This document shows positions 23,042 to 25,560 of a stretch of 34,235 nt of DNA, one piece after another. This DNA comes from a virus. Each line of letters opens with the position of its first letter. The stretch's first letter is position 1. Under the pieces are notes generated by a model that made no database searches, was not told the origin of the DNA, and saw nothing but the letters and a program-made list of their open reading frames with translations. A program made the position numbers and the translations under genes. The stretch spans positions 1 through 34,235 of IMG/VR virus record IMGVR_UViG_3300046515_000272; one strand, written 5' to 3'.

Positions 23042-23797
23042 ATGCTCAAGCACATTTTGAAGGCGGTTCGGGCCCATGCCGCCTCCGAGTATCCGCGCGA
23101 GAGCTGCGGCCTGCTGATCAGCATCGGCCGCAAGCAGAAGTACATCCCGTGTCCGAACACTGCAACCGACCCGAACGAAGAGTTCCGGATTGCTCCGGAG
23201 GATTACGCTGCGGCCGAAGACCAGGGCGACGTGATCGGCATCGTTCACTCGCACCCAGACGCGACCAGCAGGCCGTCTCCGCGCGATTTGGCCATGTGCG
23301 AAGCGACCGAACTGCCTTGGCACATCTTGAGCTGGCCGGAAGGTGACCTGCGCACAATTGTGCCCACCGGCCATACGCCGCTGCTGGGTCGTCCGTTCGT
23401 GCATGGTGCCTGGGACTGCTGGCAGGTCTGCGCCGACTGGTATAAGCGCGAATGGGGCCTGGAGTTTGAATACTTCAAGCGCGAGGACGGTTGGTGGGAG
23501 CAGGCGGACGGCCCAAGTCTGTATGAGCAAGCCTACGAGGCCGCAGGCTTTCAGCGCGTTGGCACACTGCAACGCGGCGACATGATCGTCATGGAAGTAG
23601 GGCGCACCAAGCACCCGAACCATGCAGGGATCTACCTTGGCGCTGACGCAATGCTGCCAGGCGAGTCGGTTGCTGTGCACGGCGCCGGGCCTTTCCTGCT
23701 CCATCACATCTACGGCAAGCCGTCCGAGATCATTGTCTTCGGCGGGCCTTGGCATGACAGAACTCGTCTTATTCTGAGGCATGCGCATGCTACTTAG
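23042..23797 (+). CDS. Tail tip peptidase, lambda gpK-like, JAMM plus NlpC/P60, 251 aa
   Basis: The N-terminal half is a JAB/MPN metalloprotease-type domain with HSHPD at residues 69-73 and S79/D82. The C-terminal half is an NlpC/P60 cysteine peptidase-type domain with C126 in 'GAWDCWQVCADWY' and H194 in 'HPNHAGIYLG'. Both sets of catalytic residues are present. The fused form is that of lambda gpK, which is needed for tail tip assembly and may cut peptidoglycan during infection. Two unrelated cassettes follow before the gpI-like gene, which is normally adjacent. Confidence 0.92.
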   Translation: MLKHILKAVRAHAASEYPRESCGLLISIGRKQKYIPCPNTATDPNEEFRIAPEDYAAAEDQGDVIGIVHSHPDATSRPSPRDLAMCEATELPWHILSWPEGDLRTIVPTGHTPLLGRPFVHGAWDCWQVCADWYKREWGLEFEYFKREDGWWEQADGPSLYEQAYEAAGFQRVGTLQRGDMIVMEVGRTKHPNHAGIYLGADAMLPGESVAVHGAGPFLLHHIYGKPSEIIVFGGPWHDRTRLILRHAHAT

Positions 23798-23817
23798 TCT
23801 TCCATAAATTAACCGTG

Positions 23818-24405
23818 TTATGGCTGGATTTCGCCCTCGTTTATTAAGGCAGCGGCTCTCCGGGTATAATGAAAAACGCGGCTTCCTTTGCTGTTTCGGC
23901 TCACTGAGACCAAGCCCAATTGCAGGAGGGCGTCGAGGTCGTCCTCAATGAATCTTGGCTCATCGGGAGCCCATCCGCCTGTGCCATCAAGGGAATGAAA
24001 AATCGTTCCGACAGACATATGGCTTTCTAAAAGCTTTCCCGATCCACTCGACTCATAAAACTTAAGGAAAGCTAAAGCCTGCTTTGATAACAGGGCGCTG
24101 GGTTTGGTATTCGAAGCAAGCGCTTCAAAGCCCTCTATACCGCTTGTGAAGCTCGCAAGTGCGTTCTCGATTCGATCCAAGCGCTCGACAAAATCAGTCC
24201 GTTGCACGTTCAAGATGGCTTTGATGCTGACGGATGTCGCGTGGTTAGCCTCAATAGATGCCTTTAGCTCCTCTTGACCAGACTGTATCAGCCAAGTCAA
24301 AAAAGCATCAAAGTCTCTACCTGCCTCGCTGTCGCGGTTTGCTTTGTATTGCCCTATAAGGCCAACCAATGTTGCAAATGTGCCAGTAGCGGTTAACGGA
24401 TCCAT
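23818..24405 (-). CDS. Minus-strand moron of unknown function, 195 aa
   Basis: This gene is inverted relative to the tail operon and lies between the gpK and gpI homologues. The protein starts MDPLTATGTFATLVGLIGQY, a weakly hydrophobic helix, and continues with a helical middle (about 25-100) including 'LTWLIQSGQEELKASIEANH'. The C-terminal 70 residues (about 125-190) have a winged-helix look: 'DDLDALLQLGLVSVSRNSKGSRVFHYTRRA'. The N-terminal form reminds me of small adaptor domains in bacterial defence proteins, but I cannot name a family. AAGGAA lies six bases before the ATG. Lower GC, inversion and place at a tail-gene boundary indicate a lysogenic-conversion gene, possibly superinfection exclusion. 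Confidence 0.72.
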   Translation of the reverse strand: MDPLTATGTFATLVGLIGQYKANRDSEAGRDFDAFLTWLIQSGQEELKASIEANHATSVSIKAILNVQRTDFVERLDRIENALASFTSGIEGFEALASNTKPSALLSKQALAFLKFYESSGSGKLLESHMSVGTIFHSLDGTGGWAPDEPRFIEDDLDALLQLGLVSVSRNSKGSRVFHYTRRAAALINEGEIQP

Positions 24406-24479
24406 AAATCGTTCCTTTTAATGGAGGCGCAACTTTACGATCTCTGCACTCACATCAGCTACTGACCTTTTGTCCACAC

Positions 24480-24531
24480 TGGATAGGCACACAGCCCGGT
24501 GCTACCCTCGGGTCTTTCTCATTGAGGGATA
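24480..24531 (+). promoter_or_regulatory. Promoter and ribosome-site dyad of the lipoprotein gene
   Basis: TGGATA (24480-24485, four of six -35 bases) is 17 bases from TACCCT (24503-24508), which is preceded by TGC as in an extended -10 element. CCCTC (24505-24509) is the inverse of GAGGG (24524-24528), which is the ribosome site; TA outside each arm extends the pairing past one bulge. The leader from a start near 24515 would lack the left arm. Confidence 0.5.
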
Positions 24532-24534
24532 ATC

Positions 24535-24879
24535 ATGCGAATTTTGATAGGGGCGCTGGCTGTTGCCCTGTTGGCGGGATGCGTGTCGCCAAGTGATTTG
24601 AAGACGAACAAGCCCACCACCAGTGCAAGCACGAAGAAGTCGCCGAAGGAATACACGCTCTGTGTTTACCCGAAGTGGCAGGACGCTCGCTCTGAGGCAG
24701 TGATGTCTGAAACGTCAGACGGATATCGCATTGTGATTGGCGCGATGCAGCTGACTGATGAGCTAGTCGAGGTCAGCAAGTCTGGCGCTGGCAGTCGAGT
24801 TAATTTCTATCAGAGGGTCGCGTGGATGCCCGGTGTGGGGCGAACGGCGATCGAAGAGGCGGTTAAAGACTGCCTCTGA
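24535..24879 (+). CDS. Small lipoprotein moron, 114 aa
   Basis: A lipoprotein signal (MRILIGALAVALLAGCVSPS) has the lipobox LLAGC with the cysteine at residue 16. The mature part has a disordered Thr/Ser/Lys stretch, then a compact domain with 'YTLCVYPKWQDARSEAVM' and a terminal cysteine (VKDCL). Its own promoter, a following terminator, and a divergent minus-strand neighbour show that it is an inserted unit and not a tail protein. Surface lipoproteins of this sort can block superinfection, as known for other phages; for this one it is conjecture. Confidence 0.72.
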   Translation: MRILIGALAVALLAGCVSPSDLKTNKPTTSASTKKSPKEYTLCVYPKWQDARSEAVMSETSDGYRIVIGAMQLTDELVEVSKSGAGSRVNFYQRVAWMPGVGRTAIEEAVKDCL

Positions 24880-24887
24880 CCCAAACC

Positions 24888-24908
24888 AGCCACCTTCGGG
24901 TGGCTTTT
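24888..24908 (+). terminator. Terminator with TTCG loop
   Basis: AGCCACC pairs with GGTGGCT around the stable TTCG tetraloop and is followed by TTTTCTTTT. It closes the lipoprotein unit and lies just ahead of the gpI-like gene's GAGGGGG ribosome site. Confidence 0.85.
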
Positions 24909-24928
24909 CTTTTGAGGGGGAAATGTCC

Positions 24929-25519
24929 ATGACTGTGGCTTCATACAGCCCGATGACCACAATTTTTCTGTCTGGCTCGCTGGCCAAAAAGTTCGGGCGC
25001 ACGCATCGCCGCCAGATTGACTCGGGCCAAGTATGGGAAGCGTTCAAGGCTCTCAAGGCGACCTTGGCCGGATTTGATGAGGAGATTAAACGCCTCGACC
25101 GGCTGGGCATGCGATTTGCGATTTACCGCAACCGGAAGAACGAAGCCACTGATGCATTCGACCTCGGCGGAACTCGCGAACTGCGAATCGTCCCGGTCGT
25201 GTCCGGGAGCAAGCGTGCTGGCATCCTTCAAACCATCATCGGCGCCGTGATCTTCGTGGCGTCGTTCTTCGTGCCAGGCATGCAGGGGTGGGGGCAGTCG
25301 CTCGGCGCCTCATTGGTACTTGGTGGCGTTATTCAAATGCTCAGTCCTCAGTCTTCTGGACTCAAGCAAAGCGCCGCGCCTGAAAACCTGCCGTCCTACG
25401 CATTCGGCTCAGCCCGCAATACCACTGCCAGTGGCAACCCGGTCCCTATCTGTATCGGCCGCAGGCGCTGGGGTGGCGCGATCATTTCTGCATCGATCTA
25501 CGCCGAAGACAAAACCTAA
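24929..25519 (+). CDS. Tail assembly protein, lambda gpI-like, 196 aa
   Basis: The family form is clear: 'FLSGSLAKKFGRTHRRQIDSG' at the N-terminus, 'RRKNEATDAF'-type middle (here NRKNEATDAF), a hydrophobic pair of spans (about 96-145; ILQTIIGAVIFVASFFVPGM) and 'SYAFGSARNTTASGNPVPICIG' before the end. ATG 24929 has GAGGGGG eight bases upstream, while ATG 24923 in frame is only two bases from it, so I prefer 24929. Lambda gpI acts with gpJ, gpK and gpL in building the tail tip. A palindrome and a terminator-like hairpin separate it from gpJ. Confidence 0.88.
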   Translation: MTVASYSPMTTIFLSGSLAKKFGRTHRRQIDSGQVWEAFKALKATLAGFDEEIKRLDRLGMRFAIYRNRKNEATDAFDLGGTRELRIVPVVSGSKRAGILQTIIGAVIFVASFFVPGMQGWGQSLGASLVLGGVIQMLSPQSSGLKQSAAPENLPSYAFGSARNTTASGNPVPICIGRRRWGGAIISASIYAEDKT

Positions 25520-25531
25520 TTCCTGAATTAG
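25516..25531 (+). repeat. Palindrome at the end of the gpI-like gene
   Basis: CTAATTC and GAATTAG form a seven-base inverted repeat with two bases between. It overlaps the TAA of the gpI-like gene and is followed eight bases later by a GC-rich hairpin, so the two hairpins are arranged in tandem. Confidence 0.6.
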
Positions 25532-25538
25532 AAGACCG

Positions 25539-25560
25539 ACCGCCGATTGGCGGTTTTTTT
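25539..25560 (+). terminator. Terminator-like hairpin ahead of gpJ
   Basis: ACCGCC pairs with GGCGGT around GATT and is followed by seven T's. The ribosome site TGGAGAAAA begins only six bases after the last T, with the J start at 25577. The same order occurs before the gene at 32281. Confidence 0.8.

Follow-up and report, generated by a model that had tools for sequence, protein, structure and literature searches.

A tail-tip junction of Pseudomonas-type phages as a probable moron hotspot with a fixed lipoprotein gene and interchangeable cargo behind a promoter-like module

Why are two tail-tip genes of a lambda-like phage, the homologues of gpK and gpI, held about 1.1 kb apart, and do the genes between them work together or separately? 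We addressed this question in a stretch of viral DNA of 34,235 nucleotides (IMG/VR record IMGVR_UViG_3300046515_000272, positions 1 to 34,235; henceforth the window), in which the tail module has the lambda-like order L-K-I-J and the region 23798-24929 lies between the gpK and gpI homologues (henceforth K and I). The closest named phages to the window are Pseudomonas phages, and these relatives suggest a Pseudomonas-type host. An earlier note, made from the sequence alone, had described a minus-strand open reading frame (ORF) of 195 codons, a divergent lipoprotein ORF and a terminator between K and I, and we found this anatomy to be correct:

23042..23797, plus strand: gpK homologue (Prok-JAB and NlpC/P60; PF14464 5.6e-19, PF00877 3.3e-10, phrog_30 2.3e-118), left border of the putative hotspot
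23818..24405, minus strand: 195-aa cargo gene, henceforth X195 (homologues in phage junctions and in Proteobacteria; AlphaFold model)
24423..24494, minus strand: promoter-like module 5' of X195 (the only match in the window to model R1, in whose underlying alignment this copy is itself a row, 43.7 bits, E 4.7e-13; nhmmer 3.6e-8)
24480..24508, plus strand: predicted lipoprotein promoter, with a -35-like TGGATA at 24480-24485, 17 nt and an extended -10, TGCTACCCT, at 24500-24508 (conservation)
24535..24879, plus strand: gene for a 114-aa lipoprotein with signal peptide MRILIGALAVALLAGC (phrog_914 1.3e-32)
24888..24905, plus strand: intrinsic terminator, stem AGCCACC-TTCG-GGTGGCT followed by TTTTCTTTT (strong hairpin with T-run)
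24923..25519, plus strand: gpI homologue, starting at 24923 or 24929 (phrog_32 1.8e-61), right border of the putative hotspot

The G+C content is 0.616 in K, 0.559 in the lipoprotein gene and 0.497 in X195. Both genes between K and I are real, given that X195 has relatives, an intact frame and a pN/pS of ~0.23-0.28 between phage copies, and that the lipoprotein belongs to phrog_914 and has more than 80 relatives. An Rfam scan of the window returned zero families.

To place this arrangement among related phages, as the earlier note had proposed, we gathered relatives by K alone, thereby avoiding bias from the lipoprotein or X195, and obtained 71 distinct K-I junctions, with ORFs called mechanically. 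K and I were adjacent (5 bp) in 2 of the 71, the median gap being ~1.4 kb, and the assumption that the two genes are normally neighbours thus does not hold for this group. A lipobox protein was found 40-76 nt before I in 64 of these junctions; in the full distinct set, whose counts are not independent events because the IMG/VR loci are mutually related and were found via K, the lipoprotein, X195 or the module pattern, the lipoprotein was present in 122 of 129 junctions and missing in 7. The lipoprotein gene therefore belongs to the junction as a rule, and X195 alone is variable cargo, rather than the two forming a single insertion as had been supposed. The distance from K to the lipoprotein gene ranged from 39 bp to ~3.8 kb (≤60 bp in 7 of the 71 junctions), and most junctions with a gap above 60 bp held differing genes there; across the junction loci the mean G+C content of the gap was 0.51 vs 0.63 for K. 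Extra genes thus stand between genes that are adjacent or nearly so in relatives, as expected of a moron. We consider it reasonably probable that the K-I junction is a moron hotspot, composed of a fixed exclusion lipoprotein and of swappable cargo lying behind a shared promoter-like module. In one locus (L063:2840-4947) we also observed two tandem lipoprotein-I pairs, which looks like a duplication of this unit.

In the K-lipoprotein gap, X195 is one interchangeable cargo gene among many. A scan of 100 sequences, i.e., X195 and 99 cargo ORF representatives (some of them chance frames), gave matches to zeta toxin, YhaV, YafO, HEPN_AbiU2, Imm_superinfect, a WaaP kinase and M78/capP, as well as to NYN with OST-HTH, Clp protease-like, trypsin-like and aspartyl-protease-like domains, and 26 PADLOC models were matched among the cargo. 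The survey of related phages therefore did turn up other cargo, and the description of both genes as resembling lysogenic-conversion cargo stands: they have promoters or promoter-like sequences of their own and low G+C content, X195 is patchily distributed, and genes of defence, toxin and superinfection types are abundant in the junction. A WaaP/Kdo-type LPS kinase is encoded in one junction and Imm_superinfect in another; both could alter phage receptors or entry.

We found that the lipoprotein slot is filled by five unrelated mature types (74, 43, 2, 2 and 1 members; n = 122), most of which share a near-identical, MRILIGAL-like signal peptide. The window copy belongs to type 0 (phrog_914), all 74 members of which have exactly three cysteines, with the extra cysteine pair invariant. 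None of the 122 lipoproteins has Asp at position +2 (the window copy reads MRILIGALAVALLAGC-V), i.e., the lipobox signal peptide comes without the inner-membrane retention residue. A promoter before the lipoprotein gene, which had been proposed earlier, is supported by conservation, with TGCTACCCT as the window copy: an extended -10 of the form TGnTAnnnT, mostly 23-27 nt before the lipoprotein ATG, was found in 84 of 122 junctions, vs 0 of 366 start sites of I, J, K and L in those phages and 2.8% of shuffled sequence. It is kept even in empty junctions, where the K stop codon can supply the TG. A simple sigma-70 scan of the window junction found no site, the lipoprotein promoter included. Most of the junctions displayed have a hairpin with a T-run 3' of the lipoprotein gene. 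An own promoter together with a terminator are marks of a moron, and the lipoprotein gene has both, X195 having the promoter-like module only; a terminator by itself is no such marker, since similar T-run hairpins are also present in the I-J interval. A second one of this kind lies between I and J of the window (25520-25560; CCGCCGATTGGCGG TTTTTTT).

AlphaFold confidently predicted a compact alpha/beta mature domain for the lipoprotein (mean pLDDT 82.8). Comparison with PDB structures gave a best Z of 8.1 among scattered, unrelated rows (e.g., BamC and Flpp3), which is the level of a common arrangement, and in the viral structure library only its own phiAH14a homologue fell below 0.001; a PDB sequence search with the X195 and lipoprotein alignments returned nothing significant. 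By analogy, the lipoprotein is probably an outer-membrane superinfection-exclusion protein that works like Cor, Llp or Rtp45. Exclusion of phages in E. coli has been shown for lipoproteins that mEp phages encode within their structural cluster (PMC11893012), and Rtp45 and Llp block receptors by binding them from the periplasmic side (PMC12685063). The likeness to Cor (phi80, N15, mEp167) and to the mEp021/mEp010 Lpp lies in a phage lipoprotein with a lipobox and predicted outer-membrane sorting, and for the mEp Lpp also in a gene of the structural cluster with several sequence types; on the other hand, no sequence relation was seen, and the lipoprotein type here does not follow the J end. With T5 Llp and Rtp45, which shut FhuA or LptD, the shared traits are a periplasm-facing lipoprotein and a predicted intramolecular disulfide, the window lipoprotein differing in its larger size (~99 mature residues) and predicted alpha/beta fold, again with no sequence relation seen.

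A lipoprotein that shuts the receptor used by its own phage would be expected to vary in type along with the receptor-binding end of J. Comparing lipoprotein type with J segments in 47 phages by Mantel and partial Mantel tests gave no correlation (raw r <0.07). Nearest-neighbour linkage was strong only with the adjacent I allele (same type 0.66 vs 0.31), and the signal at the J end was weak (0.49, p ~0.02). It may be that J is not the receptor-binding protein of these phages. The same pattern is also what one would see if the lipoprotein were a part of the tail tip or of the late programme, e.g., a helper of lysis or of I assembly, with the I linkage reflecting a joint function. This reading, which would suit the constant position directly upstream of I as well as the missing Mantel correlation with J, seems to us unlikely: a late-programme part would hardly be expected to have five unrelated mature folds in one slot, to be missing from some junctions, and to carry its own promoter and terminator, and physical neighbourhood alone accounts for the linkage with I. 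Even less credible is the proposal of the earlier note that X195 and the lipoprotein form one two-component exclusion system, a cytoplasmic sensor or effector plus an outer-membrane lipoprotein, here taken as joined by a shared divergent promoter. The upstream block of the X195 module and the lipoprotein promoter do overlap (24480-24494), and in many junctions the module stands ~50 bp from the lipoprotein gene; against this, nearly all junctions with the lipoprotein lack X195, bacterial chromosomes can carry X195 and lack the lipoprotein, and the same module precedes many unrelated ORF families. The two genes are independent of each other, and we regard a joint system as very improbable.

X195 represents an undescribed, patchily distributed family with a modelled C-terminal winged helix. 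Relatives with 62-67% identity were found in other K-I junctions (L005/L098, L040/L095 and L050), and relatives with 26-43% identity in Ramlibacter, Shewanella, Ectothiorhodospira, Desulfuromonas, Psychrobacter, Gallionellaceae and Variovorax and in one other prophage, these diverged relatives being solo genes. X195 was detected in 5 of 369 sampled Gammaproteobacteria, one of them spurious (~1%), and clearly in 2 of 300 sampled genomes from the order of Ramlibacter; the phage collection searched for it contained none. Some of these searches used 23818-24402, i.e., the gene without its start codon, from which no change in the results is expected. Fourteen residues are invariant across 11 sequences. 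We dismissed an X195 match within a 969-aa open frame (L104) as a chance frame, and an apparently shared N-terminal domain in Dechloromonas (L094) proved instead to be an X195 copy broken by an insertion and stops; this copy (L094 / G006:C1:1552131-1555112) is split by ~2.4 kb of inserted DNA.

The profile and structure searches that had been suggested for both proteins gave a family, phrog_914, for the lipoprotein and no significant defence-family match for X195. Specifically, none of the profile libraries names X195, its best matches to defence profiles (PADLOC JetA, E 0.007; Pfam DUF3375, E 0.1) stayed under the cut-off, and Foldseek gave zero matches below 0.001. The winged-helix-like end that had been read from the sequence agrees with the AlphaFold model, in which residues ~100-190 are predicted as a winged helix with pLDDT mostly 87-92, and the N-terminal half is modelled as helices at low confidence. 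At the X195 3' end a terminator was not found, and no fixed plus-strand antidote was seen for it. Around some X195 copies we found defence-type genes, which is suggestive only: Abi_C 73 bp upstream on the same strand (L102), PIN7 (L086), Mrr with M78 ~2.4 kb off (L090) and M78 (L050).

Many of the cargo genes share a DNA element. This module of ~72 bp recurs 5' of minus-strand cargo and consists of CCTGtccnggCATCCAGcgTGGAtggAAngCCAGTAAC, 17 random bases and TAGTAGCnTtntgCC; its general type is CTG..CATCCAG..TGGA..CAGTAAC-N17-TAGTAGC, the window copy having diverged in the last block (TAGTAGC). The junction loci, 1.2 Mb in all, contained 46 occurrences of a simple core pattern, which was present in the K-lipoprotein gap of 43 of 122 junctions; a profile search gave 178 distinct copies. 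Where both K and I were within reach of a copy, it stood in the K-I interval in 127 cases, always antisense to the tail genes, and elsewhere in 9, several of these in the I-J junction. Among named entries, the module is carried by AUS531phi, phiAH14a and a P. aeruginosa prophage record. The module was found in 25 of 298 genomes of one OprF-bearing family (presumably Pseudomonadaceae, as the genomes were chosen by a strong OprF match), mostly in prophage tail regions, vs a single, marginal case among 369 Gammaproteobacteria. Several of the genome copies are outside any recognised K-I region, for the most part ahead of an accessory gene. The ORFs 3' of the module fall into 49 unrelated families (blastp), and an ORF of at least 60 aa follows 93% of modules vs 47% of random positions, which means that some of the small downstream families are likely chance frames.

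Of 149 copies in which the spacer of the module could be measured, 133 have one of 17 nt, and its information content is near zero; being constant in length and random in sequence, it looks like the gap between two blocks contacted by a polymerase or regulator. The blocks CAGTAAC and TAGTAGC, 17 nt apart, do not correspond to TTGACA/TATAAT-like sigma-70 hexamers at 16-18 nt. A LexA-like reading (CTG-N10-CAG) was dropped, as the middle is not AT-rich and the blocks reach beyond it, and an ECF-type -35/-10 (AGTAAC ... CGTA) fits poorly, with a spacing of 15 and a poorly conserved CG. A literature search, with most subscription papers outside its reach, returned nothing relevant on the letters of the module or on a shared cargo promoter. 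We tentatively suggest that the module could be a portable promoter specific to Pseudomonas, with one conserved host factor as its reader, behind which temperate phages and islands would place unrelated cargo (defence genes among it), and X195 an undescribed defence protein of that regulon; taken as a whole, this is possible and somewhat doubtful. If it were true, a single host regulator (an alternative sigma factor or activator) would switch on a large regulon of prophage cargo, and prophages of different repressor types could express their cargo in common. Given that new cargo sits in the K-lipoprotein gap and behind CAGTAAC-N17-TAGTAGC, a DNA pattern, in place of homology, could be used to collect undescribed defence and exclusion genes.

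Both halves of this suggestion have a competitor. Since the module stands before unrelated cargo in several junctions, also outside phages, it might be a recombination seam or attachment site for cargo swapping instead of a promoter. A seam would not be expected to keep a spacer of fixed length and random sequence, as two protein contact blocks predict, nor to lie consistently antisense to the tail genes and ahead of an ORF, and nearly all loci have one module copy per junction, with a flanking second copy absent; we find this reading improbable. For X195, the competing view is that of a transcription regulator with a MarR-like winged helix, tuning host or prophage genes and not acting as a defence effector, and this we hold to be an appreciable possibility, if short of an even one. 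It draws on the modelled C-terminal winged helix, whose top structural neighbours are MarR-type regulators (Z 8.7, rmsd 2.7 over 77 aa, with no sequence match), and on the occurrence of X195 as a solo gene in varied contexts. MarR proteins, however, dimerise via helices that flank the winged helix, which the low-confidence N-terminal half of X195 does not show; a Z near 8 may reflect a common arrangement only, and winged helices are common in defence proteins too.

Returning to the hotspot explanation, we envisage the following course of events. In the lysogen the late operon would be silent, and the lipoprotein gene would be transcribed rightward from its own promoter and stopped by its terminator. 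Judging from the lipobox and the +2 residue, the product would be lipidated and sorted to the outer membrane, would fold in the periplasm with a probable disulfide and, as with Cor, Llp and Rtp45, would bind an outer-membrane receptor from below, such that related phages could not adsorb or inject. Cargo genes would be exchanged between K and the lipoprotein gene, and a cargo gene inserted behind the module would be expressed with the tail operon still off. X195 would be transcribed leftward from the module, against the late operon, to give a protein, cytoplasmic or membrane-associated, whose most likely role in the lysogen is phage defence or host regulation. The lipoprotein would thus shield the cell at the outer membrane, and the cargo would add an exchangeable intracellular function.

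Parts of this arrangement have counterparts in known systems. HK022 gp20 is an annotated moron in the same gpK-gpI position, and differs in that its product is short, has a hydrophobic segment at the N-terminus and lacks a lipobox. Tab, a minus-strand defence gene embedded in a late operon, has a promoter of its own and is expressed from the prophage (PMC10884400); like X195, Tab of phage JBD26 is minus-strand cargo in the late operon of a Pseudomonas prophage, whereas it occupies a terminase-gene junction, encodes another protein and has a fixed plus-strand antidote. The P2/P4 defence hotspots likewise hold many unrelated defence genes in a fixed phage junction, in contrast to which the present site is a lambda-like tail junction with one promoter-like module for many cargo genes and a bordering, fixed lipoprotein gene.

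Several further observations concern the module. Copies in the I-J junction (L002:5355-5413 in phage Alize and L357:3501-3561 in phiAH14a), which lie next to or 5' of a gene running against the tail genes, mark a second cargo site in the tail operon, and in prophages (L393 and L394) the module lies upstream of the tape-measure gene region, a third tail position. Further copies, in genomes presumed to be of Pseudomonadaceae (L390, L391, L392, L395, L396, L397 and L398), have no recognised K-I tail genes within ~8 kb and mostly precede an accessory gene. Finally, in 21 copies a leader hairpin (type CGGTCCGTTGCCTGCAAGCCCATGGACCG) lies between the module and the cargo ORF (e.g., L176:7243-7277, L060:2090-2124, L062:3198-3232 and L114:7709-7743), and its arms vary between loci with apparently matching changes, which points to a possible RNA control element.
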